Positions 11,391 to 22,675 of a stretch of 22,675 nt of DNA are shown here, one piece after another. The position numbers and the translations under genes are program-made. The stretch's first letter is position 1, and every line of letters starts with the position of its first letter. The DNA is from a virus, in the IMG/VR virus record IMGVR_UViG_3300031507_000241, positions 1 through 22,675 of that record; one strand, written 5' to 3'. The notes under the pieces are model-generated. The model did no database searches and was not told where the DNA came from. It saw only the letters and a program-made list of their open reading frames with translations.

Positions 11391-14300
11391 ATGAAGAACG
11401 ACATCGAACAAATTCTCGGCGCAGGTGGTGGAGGCGGTGACGCTCACACTCCAGTCGACTCGCCTAACTCACTGCTGTCGCTGACGACAGCTCGGGTCAT
11501 GTTCCTCACCTCTGACGGTGAGATTCAAGGTCTTGCTGACCAGACGAACAAGCTGAAGTCGGTCTACCTGAACAACGTGCCAGCGATGAACGCAGACGGC
11601 ACGCTCAACTTCGCTTCCGTGATCGTCGATGAGCGCTACGGCCTCCCATCGCAGTCCGTGATCCCAGGCTTCCCGTCTGTCTCTTCAGCTTTCAACATCG
11701 GCACGAAGATCACGGTCTCCGCACCAGTCATCTACACGTCATCCACTTCGGCAGTCGATGCAATCCGCGTGTCGATTCGTTTCCCTGCACTGTTCACTCA
11801 GCAGACGAACGGCGACACAACAGGCGCAACGGTCAACTTCCAGATTTACACAGCTCTCGGTGCAGGCTCGTACTCGCTGATCAAGGACGTCACCAAGACA
11901 GACAAGTGCACGTCGCCTGCTGACGTTGACTACCTGATCAACCGTCCTTCTGGCTCTGGTACATGGTCTGTCAAGGTCGTTCGTGTCACTGCTGACAATG
12001 TATCTACCACGCTGGCTAACGACATCTACTTCCAAGTATCGAATGAGCTGCAGTACGCAGTCCTTCCGTACAACAACCGCGCTGTCATCGGTCTGACCGT
12101 CACAGCAGCAGCAACGGGAACAACGTACCCACTCGTCTCGTTTGACTTGTACGGCCTGAAGGTCAAGGTTCCGTCGAACTACAACCCTGTCACTCGCGTC
12201 TACAGCGGCACGTGGTCAGGTACTTTTGCATCTTCGAAGCAGTGGACGAACAACCCAGCGTGGGTGCTCTATGACTTGCTGACGAACACAACGCACGGCA
12301 TGGGTCTCGCTGCGTCAGACATCGACCAGTACTCGTTCTATGACGCTGCTGTCTACAACGACGGTCTCGTTCCTGCTCTCGTCAACGGTTCCGTGAGCGG
12401 CACTGAGCCTCGCTACGTCTTCAACTACCAACTGATGGCACAAGACTCAGCATGGCAGACGATTCAGAACATCGCCGCTTCGTTCGGTGCTGTCGTCTAC
12501 ACATCTGGCAACCGTGCCAAGCTCGTTCAGGATCGTCCAACAGGCTTCTCGCGCCTTATCACGAACTCGAACGTAGAAGACGGTGTGTTCGAGTACACGT
12601 CATCGCAGCTGAACACTCGTCAGTCAGCGTGCAAGGTCTACTGGAACGATCCTTCTCAGAACTACCTGTCGATCCCTGCGTACTATGAAGATGCAGCAGG
12701 CACGACTCGCTATGGACTTGCAGTCCAGACCGTCACGGGTCTCGGTATCACTTCTGAAGGTCAGGCACTGCGTCTGGCGAAGTGGCACGTCGATACCTCA
12801 CTGAACAACACCGATGCTGTTGTCTTCAAGGTCGGCTTTGCTAACGCTGGTATGGAACCAGGCGAAGTCATCAAGATCGCTGACACAGACTACGGCCAGA
12901 CACTCGACCTCGAAGCGAAGGTTGTTTCCACGACCACCTCCACTGTCACCTTCGACCGCACGATCAACGTGACGAGCGGCATGGTGATGGACATCGTTGG
13001 CTCCGACGGCACAACGATCTACACGCGCACGATCACCTCAACCGGCGCGTTAGTTACGGTGTCGTTCTCTGGTGCTGCAATCGCTGTCTCGACGAACGCC
13101 GATGTTGTGTTCACGGGTGCTGTCTCTCCACGTCTGTTCAAGATCACTGACGTTAAGGAAGACGGCCCAGGCCACTACACAGTGTCCGCTGTCTCATACG
13201 ACCCGAACAAGTTTGGCCGTGTCGATAGCACACCTACCGGCATCGTTCCTACGTTCCAGGCACCAGCGCTGATTCCTTCTGCGGTATTGAACCTTGCGTT
13301 CCGTGAAGGCTCGACAAACAACAACGGCGTCATTCAGCGCTCGTTGATGGTCTCTTGGTCGCGTCCTGTCACAGGCACCGTCAAGGACTACCTGCTTCGC
13401 TACCGTCGTGCAAACACGTCGTGGGTTGAGGTGTACGTCAATGCTTCGTCGTATCAGCTCGACAACGTGCTCGAAGGTCAGTACGACGTTCAAGTATTCC
13501 CGCGCACGACGATCAACTCGATGGGTCCTTTGGCGACCGGCTCATACACGATCACGTCTGCTGGTGGTGGCACAACGCTTCTCAATGCACCTACGGCGCT
13601 GGCTCTGATCGGTGGTGGTACATCGTTCTCCGGCCAGGACATCAACTTCACATGGACGAATCCATCGACAAACGCCTCGATCGCTGCAACGTTGAAGGAC
13701 TTCGAAGTTCGATTCATTGAGACGACAGGCTCGACGACTGTTCGCACGGTGTACCTGCCGTACGTCAACGCTGGCGCTTCGCAGACAGGAAGCTACACGT
13801 ATGCAATGAACAACGCTGACGGCGGCCCACGTCGCACGGTTCAGGTTCAGGTTCGCTGCCGTGACTCAAACAACAACCTGAGCAACCCAGTTACCGCGAC
13901 GTTCAGCAATCCGGCACCAGCCGTTGTCACACCAACGATCAGTTCCGGCATCGGCACTACGTTCATCAAGATGACTCGTCCAGCTGATCCAGACTTCCAA
14001 GCGTTCCTGCTTTGGGGTTCCACAACTTCGGGCTTCACTCCTGCTCTTGGTAACCTGATCTACGAAGGTGACGGCTCATCGTTCACGCACGCTGGTCTGA
14101 CTGACTCAACAACTTGGTACTACAAGGCTGCAGCGTATGACTTGTTCGGCAAGGACTACGCCGGCACAGGCCTGAACGTCTCGACCCAAGTAAGCGCAAC
14201 GACATCTGCTGGCGCGAACGTCAACGAGTACGAACTGAACGGCGTCACTTGGACACCGAACTCACCATTGACGAATCAAGTCGCATGGTCAGCTTGCACG

Positions 14301-16595
14301 GCTATTCAGACGCTCGGTGTAGGTATGGGTGCGTCATGGGCAGTTTCAGCAGGCTCAGCAACGTGGTCGTCAGGCATCCTGTACATCTACTACGTTGCGG
14401 GAGCCTCAACACTGTCTTCGACGACTGCGTTGGCTACTGCTCTTGCTTCAACGTCGAACATCATCGTTGCTACATACCGTGGCGGCACGAACCTCGAAGT
14501 CGGCAACGGTCGTGCGTACCTAGATGGTTCGTTTGTCATCGCCGGTACCGTAGCTGCTTCTGCAATCGTTACTGGCTCGCTGACTTCTGCCTCAGGTGTA
14601 TTCGGTTCGCTGGGCATCACCAACGCGTCGATTGCCAATCTCGACGGCGGCAAGATCACTGCGAACACGGTCACAGCAGCGCAGATCAACTCGAACGGTC
14701 TGACGATCAAGGACACACTCGGCAACGTCATCCTCAGCGCTGGCACGAACATCCCCACGGATGCTGCTACTGCTGGTGGTTGGAACCCTCAGTTCAGTGA
14801 CTGGACAGGCACATACCCAACTGGCTGGACTCTTTGGACCGGCACAACGGTCATCAAGGAAACGTCGCTTGTCCGTACTGGCCCGTTCGCTGCAAAGTGG
14901 ACTACTGGTGGTGTTGACAGCGGCATGTACCGTCAAGAGTCGTATTCAGTACCGAAAGCTGCTGGCACGTTTGTTCAGGGTGCGGTTGACATGTACGTTG
15001 TCTCATCGTCCAGCGCTGGTACCCCAGGTCTGCTTGTCCGTCTGTTTACCAATGCAGCTCTGACGACCTTCGTAGACAACGTTGTTCCGATTCCTTCGAC
15101 AACATCCGGTGTCTGGCAGCGCGTTCCGTTCACAGCCCGTGCGGGCAACGTTCCCGTCTACGGCCTGATCATCTATGTGATGGCTGCTTGGGCTGGGTTC
15201 AGTGGCGGCACGTGGAATGGCACTGTCGTGTTCGACAACCTGACATTCGACTATCGCGACGGCTCGACAGACAACACGCAAGTGACAGTCAACGCCAACG
15301 GCACGCTGTCAGGCGCTGGTGGCGGTACGGTCACGATCGGCGGTCTCGGCTACACAGGTGATCTCAACGCCAGCTCCGACATCCAGCTCTACCAAAGCGT
15401 TGGAGCCGGACACACCGTCACCGGCAACACCATTGCTAACCTGTCCAACTCAAGCTGGACAAGCAGCGTCGCATCAAGGAACGCACAGACCGGCGCCGCC
15501 TACTGTGCCTTCAGTCCTGCCACAGGGGCGTACTACATCGCTGGTCTAAGCACAACACAGACGGTCACCGCACCTAACATGGCGTACTCGGTGATCACGC
15601 GCGCTGACGGCAACATCAGCTCTCGCGAAAACGGGGCCACCGAAACCGCACTTGGCACCTATGTCGTTGGTGATGTGATTGGCATCGAGTACGACGGCTC
15701 GAACGTTCGGTATCTGAAGAATGGGGCGGTGCTGCGCACGATTACAGCAGCAGCCAATCAAGTCTTGTACTTCGAGGCATCGGTCATCGGTAACTCGATC
15801 TCTGGTTGCCGCTTCGGCCCACTAACCAGCAACAACTGGGTGAGCGTGGGTGGCACTGGAAAGCCAACGGACAACGCCACTCGCGATGTATCGCTGGTGC
15901 CGCGTGTTTCCTGCTATGTGACTGGCAACACGATTGGCAAGGCCGGTGGCTCTGCTGCCTGGGACAGCGATGTCTACAGCACAAACCCAATCGGCTCAGG
16001 CTGCGTGGCCTACGCAACCGTTGCATCAACAGGGTGGAACATCATGTTCGGCCTGAACACCGACCCAACGACGGATGCGAACTACACGTCCATCGACTAC
16101 GCGATGTACTTCGACGCTGGTGGCAACGTTTCCAAGTACGAATCCGGTGTCGGTACCGCAATGGGTACCTACACAGCTGGCTCTACAGGAGCCGTGATGT
16201 ACGACGGCTCATACGTGCGCTACTTCTTGAACGGTACACAGATCGGCTTTACGTACATTGGTGGTATTAGCAACGCGTACTACTTCGACTCGTCGTTCTA
16301 CACGGTTGGCGGTCAACTGACCAACGTTCGCTTCCTGCCCGTTGGTAACGCATCAGCTGTGCAGGTCGGTCAGCCGATCACCTCAGGTCTCGCCTCGACC
16401 TTCATTGCATCTGCTGCAATCGGTCTCGCTCAGATCAACACTGCCTCGTTCGGCTCGCTGTCCGCTCTAAGCGCAACGATTGGCACGCTGCGTACAGCGA
16501 CTTCTGGTGCTCGAACAGAAATCTACGACAACGTAATCAAGATCTATGACGCCTCGAACGTGCTGCGGGTCAAGATCGGCAACCTGGCGCTCTAA
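11391..16595 (+). CDS. J: Tail tip / host specificity protein, lambda J-like
   Basis: A 1734-residue protein. Residues 1-620 are the J core: a Gly-rich start (GAGGGGGDAHTPVDSPNSLL), a VMFLTSDGEIQGL strand, WTNNPAWVLYDLLTNTTHGM and GMEPGEVIKIADTDYG. Residues about 625-940 hold three fibronectin-III-like domains. About 945-1120 is a DUF1983-like stem (FGSLGITNASIANLDGGKIT). About 1129-1290 is a jelly-roll, carbohydrate-binding-like domain (GGWNPQFSDWTGTYPTGWT ... VFDNLTFDY). About 1341-1483 and 1510-1653 are two related lectin/SPRY-like domains. Residues 1657-1734 return to the J C-terminal stem (ATIGTLRTATSGARTEIYDN). J forms the trimeric tip that meets the receptor. The lectin pair and jelly roll interrupt the stem and are the likely receptor-binding parts. 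Confidence 0.93.
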   Translation: MKNDIEQILGAGGGGGDAHTPVDSPNSLLSLTTARVMFLTSDGEIQGLADQTNKLKSVYLNNVPAMNADGTLNFASVIVDERYGLPSQSVIPGFPSVSSAFNIGTKITVSAPVIYTSSTSAVDAIRVSIRFPALFTQQTNGDTTGATVNFQIYTALGAGSYSLIKDVTKTDKCTSPADVDYLINRPSGSGTWSVKVVRVTADNVSTTLANDIYFQVSNELQYAVLPYNNRAVIGLTVTAAATGTTYPLVSFDLYGLKVKVPSNYNPVTRVYSGTWSGTFASSKQWTNNPAWVLYDLLTNTTHGMGLAASDIDQYSFYDAAVYNDGLVPALVNGSVSGTEPRYVFNYQLMAQDSAWQTIQNIAASFGAVVYTSGNRAKLVQDRPTGFSRLITNSNVEDGVFEYTSSQLNTRQSACKVYWNDPSQNYLSIPAYYEDAAGTTRYGLAVQTVTGLGITSEGQALRLAKWHVDTSLNNTDAVVFKVGFANAGMEPGEVIKIADTDYGQTLDLEAKVVSTTTSTVTFDRTINVTSGMVMDIVGSDGTTIYTRTITSTGALVTVSFSGAAIAVSTNADVVFTGAVSPRLFKITDVKEDGPGHYTVSAVSYDPNKFGRVDSTPTGIVPTFQAPALIPSAVLNLAFREGSTNNNGVIQRSLMVSWSRPVTGTVKDYLLRYRRANTSWVEVYVNASSYQLDNVLEGQYDVQVFPRTTINSMGPLATGSYTITSAGGGTTLLNAPTALALIGGGTSFSGQDINFTWTNPSTNASIAATLKDFEVRFIETTGSTTVRTVYLPYVNAGASQTGSYTYAMNNADGGPRRTVQVQVRCRDSNNNLSNPVTATFSNPAPAVVTPTISSGIGTTFIKMTRPADPDFQAFLLWGSTTSGFTPALGNLIYEGDGSSFTHAGLTDSTTWYYKAAAYDLFGKDYAGTGLNVSTQVSATTSAGANVNEYELNGVTWTPNSPLTNQVAWSACTAIQTLGVGMGASWAVSAGSATWSSGILYIYYVAGASTLSSTTALATALASTSNIIVATYRGGTNLEVGNGRAYLDGSFVIAGTVAASAIVTGSLTSASGVFGSLGITNASIANLDGGKITANTVTAAQINSNGLTIKDTLGNVILSAGTNIPTDAATAGGWNPQFSDWTGTYPTGWTLWTGTTVIKETSLVRTGPFAAKWTTGGVDSGMYRQESYSVPKAAGTFVQGAVDMYVVSSSSAGTPGLLVRLFTNAALTTFVDNVVPIPSTTSGVWQRVPFTARAGNVPVYGLIIYVMAAWAGFSGGTWNGTVVFDNLTFDYRDGSTDNTQVTVNANGTLSGAGGGTVTIGGLGYTGDLNASSDIQLYQSVGAGHTVTGNTIANLSNSSWTSSVASRNAQTGAAYCAFSPATGAYYIAGLSTTQTVTAPNMAYSVITRADGNISSRENGATETALGTYVVGDVIGIEYDGSNVRYLKNGAVLRTITAAANQVLYFEASVIGNSISGCRFGPLTSNNWVSVGGTGKPTDNATRDVSLVPRVSCYVTGNTIGKAGGSAAWDSDVYSTNPIGSGCVAYATVASTGWNIMFGLNTDPTTDANYTSIDYAMYFDAGGNVSKYESGVGTAMGTYTAGSTGAVMYDGSYVRYFLNGTQIGFTYIGGISNAYYFDSSFYTVGGQLTNVRFLPVGNASAVQVGQPITSGLASTFIASAAIGLAQINTASFGSLSALSATIGTLRTATSGARTEIYDNVIKIYDASNVLRVKIGNLAL
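15411..16350 (+). repeat. Duplicated lectin-like domain inside J
   Basis: Two copies of about 145 residues, offset by about 170. Copy A has VTGNTIANLSNSSWTSSV and YDGSNVRYLKNG (Y at 1434); copy B has VTGNTIGKAGGSAAWDSDV and YDGSYVRYFLNG (Y at 1604). Both have a GTY turn before the YDG motif (ALGTYVVGD and AMGTYTAGS). The layout resembles SPRY/concanavalin-type sandwiches in phage tip proteins. Copy B has more of the usual family features (MFGLNTDPTTD, YTSIDYAMY, YESG). Confidence 0.78.
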
Positions 16596-18080: not shown

Positions 18081-18452
18081 ATGAGCAATCAACTTGACAT
18101 CGCAATCGACCAGGGCAGTTCGCTGCTTTACACGTTCACCCTGACGGATACGTCTGGTGCGGCTTACCCATTGACCAGCTTCGACGCTCGGCTTCAGGTT
18201 CGTCGCACATACGGCGATACGAACATCCTGATCAACTGCACGCTGGCAAATTCCAAGCTAGTCCTGACCAATGCTGCTTCAGGCATCTTGAGTCTCGTTT
18301 TGGAACCAGCAGACACGTCGTCTATCCGCTTCAACAGCAAGGAAGACGACACTTTGGACTGCGTGTATGACCTCGAAGTCATTCGCCCCGATGGCAAGAC
18401 GTACAAGCCAGCGAAGGGCAGCTTCACGATTGCTCGCGAAGTAACGCGCTAA
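18081..18452 (+). CDS. Small beta-sandwich virion protein (baseplate/fibre-adaptor-like)
   Basis: A 123-residue all-beta protein with a pattern common in phages: LDIAIDQGSSLLYTFTLTD, YPLTSFDARLQVRRT, a GILSLVLEPADTSSI segment and VYDLEVIRPDGKTYKPAKGS, ending in FTIAREVTR. This layout resembles the N-terminal domain of upper baseplate (BppU-like) proteins and many short phage proteins found before fibre genes. It could link fibres to the tail tip. Preceded by AACAAGGAATC; a late-promoter motif lies just upstream and another follows 22 bases after its stop. Confidence 0.75.
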   Translation: MSNQLDIAIDQGSSLLYTFTLTDTSGAAYPLTSFDARLQVRRTYGDTNILINCTLANSKLVLTNAASGILSLVLEPADTSSIRFNSKEDDTLDCVYDLEVIRPDGKTYKPAKGSFTIAREVTR

Positions 18453-19006: not shown

Positions 19007-19831
19007 ATGGCCATTGCTACTCTCGACCAATACATCGCTTCAGCGAAGCAACAAGTTGCGCTGACAAAGAACGTCGCTCGCACAACAACAGCGAATACGT
19101 GGTTCTCTGTGTTCGACCTCGCTGGTAACCCAGGTGCAGGTGCGCTCGCAGGCACAAGCACGACTGCCGGTATCCTCCAAACGTCAGGTACGCAGGGCTA
19201 CCCAGCCCTCAATGCGTTCGGTGGCTCAGCTACTGGCTACTTGACCAACGTTGACTTCGGCAACACCGTAGCCGCTCGAATGATGGTCTATGACACCCTG
19301 TGGAAGGGTGGTGCCTACACATTCAACAGCGGCACAACTACTCTGTCAGCCCAACCTTCGTACTCAGGTCGTGTTCCAAGCGGTACTGACTTCACCAACA
19401 CACAGATTTGGATTGAAGTCTCAACTGCGTTCGTCACCGGTACGTCTTGGACGATCGGTGTCACGTACACCAGCCACAACGGTACCGCAGCACGCACATC
19501 CATCGTCTCAGCAGCACAAGCTGCTGCCGGTCTGACCCAGGGCAAGATGTTCCAACTGGCACTTCAAACAGGTGACTCCGGCGTTCAAAAGATCGAGTCG
19601 GTCATCTGCTCGAACGGCGGTACTGCGATGACTGCCGGTGCGGTCAATGTGCTCGTCATTCGTCCGCTGTGGTCGGGCCGCTGCCGTGTGATCAATGATG
19701 GTGATGTTCACGCACTCGACAAGACCGGCATGCCCATCGTGTTCGCCACGTCTGCGCTCACACTCGCTGTCAACCCAGATGGCGGCTTGACTGGCATCCC
19801 TGAACTGTTGCTCGAAATCGCTAACAACTAA
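19007..19831 (+). CDS. Conserved phage structural-type protein, unknown role
   Basis: A 274-residue protein: MAIATLDQYIASAKQQVALT, TWFSVFDLAGNPGAGALAGT, GYPALNAFGG, QPSYSGRVPSGTDF, TQIWIEVSTAF, GDSGVQKIESV, NVLVIRPLWSGRCRV and a C-terminal GIPELLLEIANN. I recall this pattern from many phages of Proteobacteria, where it lies among tail or neck genes and is generally annotated only as a phage or capsid-associated structural protein. The sequence looks mostly beta with small helices, no signal peptide and no catalytic motif. Its leader (AACAAGGAGCC, 18993-19003) is the same 11-mer as in the tube gene leader. It ends 9 bases before the repeat-protein gene, so the two may work together in the virion. 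Confidence 0.75.
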   Translation: MAIATLDQYIASAKQQVALTKNVARTTTANTWFSVFDLAGNPGAGALAGTSTTAGILQTSGTQGYPALNAFGGSATGYLTNVDFGNTVAARMMVYDTLWKGGAYTFNSGTTTLSAQPSYSGRVPSGTDFTNTQIWIEVSTAFVTGTSWTIGVTYTSHNGTAARTSIVSAAQAAAGLTQGKMFQLALQTGDSGVQKIESVICSNGGTAMTAGAVNVLVIRPLWSGRCRVINDGDVHALDKTGMPIVFATSALTLAVNPDGGLTGIPELLLEIANN

Positions 19832-19840
19832 AGGGCTGAC

Positions 19841-22675
19841 ATGACGGCTCTTCGTCGTTGGCCTGTAGGTGTTGGCAGCACTACTGGCGTTCTCACAGGA
19901 GTGGTGCGTAATCGCACCACTGGCAATGGCTATTACTCCGTTGCTAGTGACCTGATCTTCGGTACGGTCACCAATCAGAAGGTGTTCCTGCTGCCGATCA
20001 CTGAATCAACAGGCATGTCGGGCCTGTTCGCTCGCTCCAATCGTGCATTGTCGATCAGCATTGCCGAGACAGTCGCCCACACGATCGCGATGTGGAAGAA
20101 CGGTGAAACGATCACGACCGACACCGGATGGAAGATCGGCTCAACCGTTGCGTCAGTTGACTACTTCGGTGGTGGTGCTCCTGCCGCCACGAACATCGGC
20201 AACATTCAATCAGAAGACGGCTCGACAGCAACAGCAACAGCAACGGTTGCTCAGGGTCAGACTCAGTACCTGAACATGAATGCCTTTGGCTTTGGCATTC
20301 CTGCAACAGCCACGATCAACGGTCTGCAAGTTCGCGCAGTTGCTAAGGACAGCAGCGGCGCTCCCGGCAACTTTATCGGTACGTTGTCGAAGCTGAACGA
20401 CTCAAATCAAACGAATGTGAACCTGACATTCCCCTCGCTGACGACGACGCTTGCCGCTGGCGTGATCGGTAATACCACCGGCGGCATCTCTGGCACGTGG
20501 GGCACAACAGCAGGCGCGTGGACAGTTGCTGATTTCAATAATTCATTGTTCTGTGCTCGTGTGAGCTTGGGCACTGGTACTCTTACTGTCAACTTGGGCC
20601 TGGACGTGCTGCAAGCGAAGGTCTACTACACGTTTGTCTGGACAGCACCGGCGATCAAGAACCTGTCGATCGCCATGGCTATTGCCGAAGCTCAGGTCAT
20701 CGCTGTCGCTCGCGCACGTCGAATCGTCCTGTCATCAGCTGAAGTCGAAGCAACAGCGTTCGCCGCAGTCAATCGTGCGCGAAACATCCTGTTCCCAGTA
20801 GCCGAAGCTGAGACATTCACTGATGCACTGGCTCGCAATCGTGGCGTCATTGAATCGATCGCCGAGACACAAGCTCAGTCCGGTTCGTTCCGTCGTTCAC
20901 GCGGCTTCAGTGCATCGCTAGTTGAGTCTGTTGCGTATGCGATTGCACTCAGCAAGATCAGCACCAAGCAGTTCAGCACGTCGATTGCAGAAGTTGAGGT
21001 GATGGTCGTCAACTACGCGCGTGCGCGCAACGTGGTTCTCACAAGTGCTGAGATCGAGGCGTTTGTGATTCAGTCGATTGCCCGTAGTCGCACTATCTCT
21101 TCGTCTATTGCAGAAGCCGAGACGTTCACTGATGCACTGGCACGCAATCGTCAGGTCACTCTTTCCGTTGCAGAGGTAGAGACGATCGCGGAAGCAGTCA
21201 GTCGTGCTCGTGGTTCTAACTTCTCAATCACTGAAGTTGAAGCCTTGTCTGCATCAATCGTTCGCGTTCTCAAGGCATCGTTCTCGGTTAGTGAATCAGA
21301 GGCAATGTCAGCAGCAGTTCGTCTTGCTCGTTCATTGGCTGCATCAGTAGCTGAGACAGAAGCGATCGTCGATGCGTTCAACCGTAGTCGTGGCATTGGC
21401 GGGTCAGTTGCGGAGTTGGAAGCACAGTCAGCCACGCTTCGTCGCGCTCGTACTGTGGCAGCAGCTCTCGTTGAATCGATTGCCTACACGATTGCCTTCG
21501 ACAAGGTAGGCCAGAAGACGTTCTCGTTCGTCGTTGCGGAGGTTGAAGCTCTCGTCGTCAACTTCGCTCGTTCCCGCAAGGTCGTCTACACACAAGCCGA
21601 AGTAGAGGCATTGGCGGTACAGACGATCAATCGTGCTCGTCAGATCGCATCAACGTTGAATGAGTCAGAAGCGATCGTCGAGGCAGTAGGTCGCAATCGT
21701 GGCATCAGCGAAACAATCAGCGAGACACAGGGTATGACGGCCTCTCTCGGTCGCCTTAAGCAAGTAGCTCTGTCCCTGGCTGAAGTGTTTGGCTACTCGT
21801 TCACCGTCGTCAAGCTCAAGGCTCTTGCTGCATCGGTCACAGAACTTGAGACACACAGCTTCGGTGCTCTTCGCCGTACTCGCAATGTCGTCGAGGCAAT
21901 GAATGAGGTAATCACGTTCGCTGAAGCGTTGAGCCGTATTCGCGGTGAGCAGATGACGGTTGCTGAAGTCGAAGTCCTGAGCGAATCGATCAGCCGTGTT
22001 CGTGCAGTTCAGGCAGCGTTGGCAGAGGTTGAAGCTGTCACACCGTCGATCGCTCGTGCTCGAAGCGTTCAAGCGACGGTTGCAGAGCTTGAGTCTCTTG
22101 CCATCATGCTCGCCAAGTTCAAGATGATGGGCTACGTCATCGCTCAAACCGAATCGGTGTCCAACCTGTTCGTCCGTCGCGTCCGCAATGTGAGCCTGAC
22201 GAACACTACCGTTGAGGCGGTCCAAGAGTCGTTCAACCGTTCACGTGCTTTCGTCGTTCCTGTTGGCGAGACGGAGCAGTTCACGTTGAACTTTGGTCGC
22301 CTCCGTCAGCAGATGGTGTCAATCAGCGAGACGCAAGGTGTCGCTGTTGCACTGGCTCGCCTGAAGCAGATCATTCAATCGATCTCGAACACGACTGGTC
22401 TTTCGTTCACGCTGACGAAGTACGCAGCCGATCCTTTGACGATCAATGTCACCGTCGAATGGGATGAGTGGGTATCGAAGCAAGTGGGCGGCTCGGCCGT
22501 TCAGCAGCTGGTCCACATGACGGAGACGCTGGCTTTCCATCCTCGCGTTTTCGGTGCTGGTACGGTGGTCGAGTCCAGTGCATCTACTGTTGTTGTCGAT
22601 GAAGCAGACGGCGCAATCGTTTCAATGCCGGCTGACCCAGCGATCACGATCATCATTCCGACCAACGCTTTGTGA
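19841..22675 (+). CDS. Large repeat protein, probable tail-associated fibre or scaffold of fibres
   Basis: A complete 944-residue protein. Residues 1-48 are a small beta N-terminal part. Residues 49-88 are two repeat units. About 90-270 is a beta-sandwich (TINGLQVRAVAKDSSGAPGN, AWTVADFNNSLFCARVSL, LDVLQAKVYYT) resembling carbohydrate-binding-type domains in phage proteins. Residues 274-862 are about 29 tandem units of about 20 residues with the consensus 'hxxSxAExExhxxxhxRxRx'. Residues 863-944 are a unique C-terminal part (NVTVEWDEWVSKQ ... PADPAITIIIPTNAL). The A/E/R content suggests helices or a solenoid, but a fibrous beta form is possible. It follows tail accessory genes, so a long virion appendage or tail-side surface protein is my inference; I know no structure or function for it. 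A short ribosome-site-like AGGGCTGAC precedes ATG. Confidence 0.8.
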   Translation: MTALRRWPVGVGSTTGVLTGVVRNRTTGNGYYSVASDLIFGTVTNQKVFLLPITESTGMSGLFARSNRALSISIAETVAHTIAMWKNGETITTDTGWKIGSTVASVDYFGGGAPAATNIGNIQSEDGSTATATATVAQGQTQYLNMNAFGFGIPATATINGLQVRAVAKDSSGAPGNFIGTLSKLNDSNQTNVNLTFPSLTTTLAAGVIGNTTGGISGTWGTTAGAWTVADFNNSLFCARVSLGTGTLTVNLGLDVLQAKVYYTFVWTAPAIKNLSIAMAIAEAQVIAVARARRIVLSSAEVEATAFAAVNRARNILFPVAEAETFTDALARNRGVIESIAETQAQSGSFRRSRGFSASLVESVAYAIALSKISTKQFSTSIAEVEVMVVNYARARNVVLTSAEIEAFVIQSIARSRTISSSIAEAETFTDALARNRQVTLSVAEVETIAEAVSRARGSNFSITEVEALSASIVRVLKASFSVSESEAMSAAVRLARSLAASVAETEAIVDAFNRSRGIGGSVAELEAQSATLRRARTVAAALVESIAYTIAFDKVGQKTFSFVVAEVEALVVNFARSRKVVYTQAEVEALAVQTINRARQIASTLNESEAIVEAVGRNRGISETISETQGMTASLGRLKQVALSLAEVFGYSFTVVKLKALAASVTELETHSFGALRRTRNVVEAMNEVITFAEALSRIRGEQMTVAEVEVLSESISRVRAVQAALAEVEAVTPSIARARSVQATVAELESLAIMLAKFKMMGYVIAQTESVSNLFVRRVRNVSLTNTTVEAVQESFNRSRAFVVPVGETEQFTLNFGRLRQQMVSISETQGVAVALARLKQIIQSISNTTGLSFTLTKYAADPLTINVTVEWDEWVSKQVGGSAVQQLVHMTETLAFHPRVFGAGTVVESSASTVVVDEADGAIVSMPADPAITIIIPTNAL
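19985..20104 (+). repeat. Two repeat units upstream of the inserted beta domain
   Basis: Residues 49-68 (FLLPITESTGMSGLFARSNR) and 69-88 (ALSISIAETVAHTIAMWKNG) match the two unit types that end blocks in the main array (for example SETQGMTASLGRLKQ and LVESVAYAIALSKIS). A roughly 180-residue beta domain separates them from the main array. Confidence 0.75.
20660..22426 (+). repeat. About 29 tandem 20-residue protein repeats
   Basis: Residues 274-862 divide into about 29 units of 19-22 residues (mean about 20.3). Typical units are VTLSVAEVETIAEAVSRARG, VQAALAEVEAVTPSIARARS and LAASVAETEAIVDAFNRSRG. The invariant points are A-E-x-E near the middle and R-x-R near the end. There is a higher-order repeat: 20846-21091 and 21395-21640 are both 246 bases, offset by 549 bases (nine units), with about 43 of 82 residues identical by hand alignment and no gaps. 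Confidence 0.9.

Follow-up and report, generated by a model that had tools for sequence, protein, structure and literature searches.

The virus record analyzed here (IMGVR_UViG_3300031507_000241, 22,675 bases, referred to as the window) ends with a gene for a 944-residue protein, P0001, most of which is a charged repeat of 20 residues. What kind of protein is this, and what could such a repeat build? The gene occupies positions 19,841–22,675 (all coordinates refer to the plus strand) and is the last ORF of the record, its stop codon supplying the final base. About 270 residues precede the array. They include a lone repeat-like unit, SISIAETVAHTIAMWKNGET, read in the translation (residues 71–90; 20,051–20,110), and an N-terminal domain (approximately residues 91–237; 20,111–20,551) that shares 27% identity (E = 4e-5) with the N terminus of protein P0013 in the related locus L103. 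A motif resembling one in this domain, SVPSDATI, was read in the sequence of another related locus, L306. The array itself covers residues 278–844 (20,672–22,372) and is closed by a C-terminal region of 100 residues (845–944; 22,373–22,672) with a W-x-[EQ]-[WF] motif that is present in eight of the eight aligned relatives.

The initial annotation described about 31 copies of the repeat, held in phase with little drift and with acidic and arginine pairs at fixed positions. The repeat is genuine. Position-specific chaining gave a score of 735, compared with a mean of 1.4 and a maximum of 16 for 50 shuffled sequences, the matrix having been trained on the P0001 array itself, and in the BLOSUM autocorrelation the highest peak is at lag 20 (z = 16.5), followed by lags 40, 10, and 81. 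The copy number had been set too high: we count 28 units, or 29 to 30 with other training. As described, the spacing is 20 residues, with few exceptions at 21 and 22. Within the unit, position 4 carries V, I, or L, position 5 carries A, and positions 10 and 14 are hydrophobic, while the charged pairs indeed recur at E6 (26/28 units), E8 (20/28), R16 (20/28, with K in four more), and R18 (15/28, again with K in four more).

We consider the half-period at lag 10 (z = 8.4 in the BLOSUM autocorrelation) to be real. The A-E-x-E motif lies in one half-unit, and R-x-R follows exactly 10 residues downstream in the other. The charge autocorrelation of P0001 is −14.4 SD at lag 10, +14.7 SD at lag 20, and +8.1 SD at lag 2, with a value of zero at lag 4, and it is similar in three relatives; hence, the unit consists of two oppositely charged halves of 10 residues each. 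Salt-bridge ladders between neighboring units had been envisaged for this protein, and the complementary positions that such a ladder requires are thus present, exactly 10 residues apart, so that a ladder could form along the array.

Tandem Repeats Finder found no DNA-level repeat in the P0001 array, which indicates old, diverged copies whose periodicity has been kept at the protein level. A block of nine units nevertheless occurs twice in succession (residues 317–499, 20,789–21,337, and residues 500–682, 21,338–21,886), the two copies being identical at 72 of 183 residues. Most units before residue 640 find their best match within P0001, and the C-terminal units at 643, 663, 785, and 805 are far closer to their counterparts in the related virus contig L124 than to any other P0001 unit. 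We read this pattern as a C-terminal half that is probably old and conserved and an N-terminal half that appears to have grown by block duplication. What seems to be a recent tandem expansion is found in a second repeat gene of Sapientia aquatica (L305:11112-11865), in which a 60-bp unit, GIVMPVTETELLTESLSRVR, is repeated 3.1 times without mismatch beside an N gap in the assembly (at about L305:11440-11535); the expansion probably broke the assembly there. Three identical copies imply that the shaft can lengthen by single units, and they provide a case of whole-unit change in fiber length.

Relatives were not found by conventional searching: tblastn with P0001 against 50,697 phage records gave no match, tblastn with the proteins of the relatives L150 and L164 gave none among phage records either, and locus searches with P0001, P0003, or the C-terminal alignment A2 returned no new relatives. 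We rely on DNA patterns that encode the E-x-E/R-x-R spacing, followed by filtering with a two-unit HMM. Four virus contigs (L124, L103, L116, and L130) yielded close relatives in this way, as did the genomes of two bacteria, Leptothrix discophora CCM 2812 and Sapientia aquatica SA-152. At all six loci (the bacterial ones being L305 and L306), the 20-residue AExE/RxR units give way to a C-terminal region that contains W-x-[EQ]-[WF]. Both bacteria are Burkholderiales, which hints at the host range.

The gene neighborhood bears on function. Upstream in the window lie portal, head, connector, tube, tape measure, and tail-assembly genes and a gene for a λ-type tail tip attachment protein J of 1734 residues (11,391–16,595). 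These are followed by P0006, a member of the phrog_1084 family (18,081–18,452), P0007 (18,493–18,936), and P0002, a protein of 274 residues with no assigned function (19,007–19,831), so that the P0001 gene sits with tail-tip and fiber-attachment genes. Homologs of P0002 occur directly before the Leptothrix repeat gene (55% identity) and in an uncultured podovirus (53%). Among virus records, relatives of P0002 were seen in three uncultured viruses only, in one case directly 3′ of a major capsid protein gene.

P0007 connects the locus to a solved phage structure. It is a homolog (PF23140; E = 1.8e-9 against PDB 8JOU) of gp80 of Ralstonia phage GP4, which is described as the fibril between an adhesin and the tail nozzle collar (PMC13243795). 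The likeness concerns P0007, two genes upstream, and not P0001 itself. In phage phiM5, the P0007 homolog has been detected in virions and is encoded two genes before a putative host-binding tail fiber, and other phages similarly have a GP4-fibril homolog ahead of a putative fiber. The order phrog_1084, GP4-fibril family, repeat gene is kept in L124, L116, and L103; upstream of it, L124 has J, and L116 and L103 have tail-fiber-like proteins. Sapientia and Leptothrix have homologs of J, P0006, and P0007 (the latter 74–80% identical) in the order of the window, and Leptothrix has P0002 as well. Since L130 begins with the repeat gene, order could be read in five of the six related loci, and in all five, as in the window, J-type or tail-fiber genes are followed by the GP4-fibril homolog and then the repeat gene.

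The proposal of a long appendage encoded after the tail genes thus gains support from gene order in the window and five related loci and from the link to the GP4 fibril, and P0001 is likely the shaft of a tail appendage, which would place it in the virion. Alternatively, P0001 could be some other virion protein, or a secreted one, encoded after the tail genes by chance; a head fiber, a surface adhesin, and the product of a host gene lying on the edge of a trimmed prophage are examples. The record stops exactly at the stop codon, PHROG labels the GP4-fibril family “head protein,” and a Laminin_G_3 lectin domain occurs among the N-terminal domains of distant relatives, all of which would suit such a protein; the module order, however, is the same in virus contigs that are independent of one another and in both bacterial genomes, and we consider this reading very unlikely.

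In sequence libraries, no family covering the repeat was found in Pfam, PHROG, or the PDB; six repeat proteins scanned against PHROGs or Pfam gave no convincing match, and literature searches for a 20-residue tail-fiber repeat retrieved none. We classify the array as a phage fiber repeat whose sequence family is uncatalogued in the libraries searched, and with a profile of this family, many phage proteins now called hypothetical would be annotated as probable fiber shafts. The NCBIfam model NF033849 (ser_rich_anae_1) matches residues 343–759 with E = 9e-11, at 39.8 bits against a cutoff of 650, and was rejected as compositional. Weak Pfam and PDB matches to PF25296 (Decapeptide), DUF7624, and OspB (1p4p) were under any threshold. 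PF24739 (DUF7690; threshold 25 bits) does not match P0001, and among the relatives only the distant L264 exceeds 25 bits, through summed 15-residue pieces.

Two known repeat systems invite comparison. Marine T7-like phages (Pelagibacter HTVC, Roseobacter CRP, and Synechococcus S-TIP37) have annotated tail fibers with long arrays of 10-residue xNVNTVAxxI-type repeats, but these contain few charges and do not alternate E and R; the relative P0014 shows weak tblastn similarity to such podophage fibers (18–27% identity), which is possibly compositional. The triple-stranded β-helix of T4 gp5, which has counterparts in other phage fibers, likewise combines a short repeat, alternating opposite charges, and a place in a phage tail; its E and K residues alternate and form salt bridges along the rod, and its chains fold only as part of the trimer (PMC4576200). 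The gp5 repeat is an octapeptide, VxGxxxxx, whereas P0001, in which this octapeptide was not found, has a period of 20, a subperiod of 10, and no conserved glycine, and its strands and trimer are part of our proposal.

Evidence on the fold is conflicting. AlphaFold2, run as a monomer with 26 in-phase rows, returned one helix of 138 residues with a pLDDT of 88.9, the value exceeding 84 in three of the five models, and no globular, nonrepetitive fold, the outcome that would have spoken against a repeat-built appendage. The single-sequence model (pLDDT 36.6) was useless and was discarded. A single long helix or a helical bundle would extend to about 85 nm as a thin and flexible rod, and the array is rich in Ala, Glu, Arg, and Leu and has only 4% Gly plus Pro, a content that suits a helix and is low for a β-chain obliged to turn corners. 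The wider family also shows weak charge compensation at lag 4 (z = −4.0), although lags 1 to 3 are similar. The sequence pattern nonetheless contradicts the helix. Amphipathic periodicity near 100° is absent (hydropathy power [KD] of 6.4 in P0001 compared with 11.3 in shuffles; across 42 proteins, the highest power at any of five angles has a median of 1.75), neither P0001 nor its close relatives show charge pairs at i and i+4, and the heptad or hendecad hydrophobic periodicity of α-helical coiled coils was not seen. Coiled coils do not usually have a period of 20 residues.

What the array does show is an alternation of side-chain size at every second residue, a strict 180° pattern that would serve no purpose in a helix. 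The power at period 2 is 27.5 in P0001, with a median of 24.6 in 42 proteins and an expectation of about 1, and when only units outside the scan patterns are used, 41 of 41 proteins have a larger side-chain volume at even than at odd positions. The V+I+T content has a median of 31%, compared with 16% in the other ORFs of the loci, many of which are spurious. The size alternation argues for β-structure with E/R salt-bridge ladders. We favor β over the helix, which we regard as unlikely, because AlphaFold2 was run on a monomer and chains of the gp5 type do not fold apart from their trimer.

In the mechanism that we consider best, although unproved, the N-terminal domain would lead into about 56 half-units, each 10 residues long, and the conserved C-terminal region, and each half-unit would form one short extended strand. 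The large-residue face of the strand would read hydrophobic-charged-charged-hydrophobic-variable, with the charge sign flipping between successive half-units, negative and then positive. With successive strands stacked in register, hydrophobic rows and E/R salt-bridge rows would run along the rod, much as the E/K rows do in T4 gp5. Stacked strands rise by about 4.8 Å, and the rod length expected from 56 of them is roughly 27 nm. Our leading interpretation, held at slightly better than even confidence, is that this stacked-strand E/R rod is the shaft of a side fiber or long tail-tip fiber of a λ-like siphophage; its trimerization, and which end attaches, we infer. The regular charge code offers a simple sequence-based hypothesis for how strand register is set in a fiber.

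The same charge and size pattern could be explained by a monomeric β-solenoid or an antiparallel single-layer sheet of 20-residue hairpins in place of an interleaved trimer. Judging from the unit positions, an antiparallel meander would also pair E6 with R18 and E8 with R16, and the E/R rows fit without a turn-like break. The charges of the wider family (E6, E12, R16, R18, and R2) suit in-register stacking of 10-residue strands slightly better, and the AlphaFold2 monomer run gave no solenoid; we judge such an architecture to be improbable. Column-centered covariation within proteins, meant to separate 10-, 20-, and 30-residue stacking, gave no signal.

These charges come from a wider family: wider patterns retrieved about 50 ORFs with a 20-residue period among a few hundred pattern-matched loci, with a unit of the type E-[ST]-I-x-I-x-E-x-I-x-R-x-R-x-L-x-R. 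One 140-residue segment per protein from a range of these proteins aligns in register without gaps (alignment A5), and the 26 aligned members have no Pfam family in common. Between subfamilies, the row E12/R2 is exchanged for E8/R18 (r = −0.22 and −0.35 without the window’s clade). This swap was rejected as covariation evidence, as it rests mostly on one clade, and it may be one ancestral change. Tentatively, and at clearly less than even confidence, we suggest that the P0001 array belongs to a large superfamily of uncatalogued viral fiber repeats and forms one of its branches. In this superfamily, a continuous strand-like 10+10 ribbon would carry opposite charges exactly 10 residues apart, a second salt-bridge row could move from 12/2 to 8/18 between lineages, and length would be tuned by gain or loss of 60-bp units.

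In the wider-family loci examined, where many neighbors are without a PHROG match, the repeat ORFs lie amid portal, major head, and tail-fiber genes or before a Cas4-type exonuclease gene; the Cas4-like gene (phrog_1706) is downstream of the repeat gene in L242, L254, and L164. Stretches rich in short FQxNVFQ-type repeats, N-terminal or upstream, come ahead of the 20-residue array in L142, L148, L150, and L186. Locus L132 belongs to Limnohabitans phage DC33 (PQ492659.1), which is recorded as Inoviridae, a placement that looks doubtful given a genome of 39 kb that encodes a lysis peptidase and a fiber-like protein.
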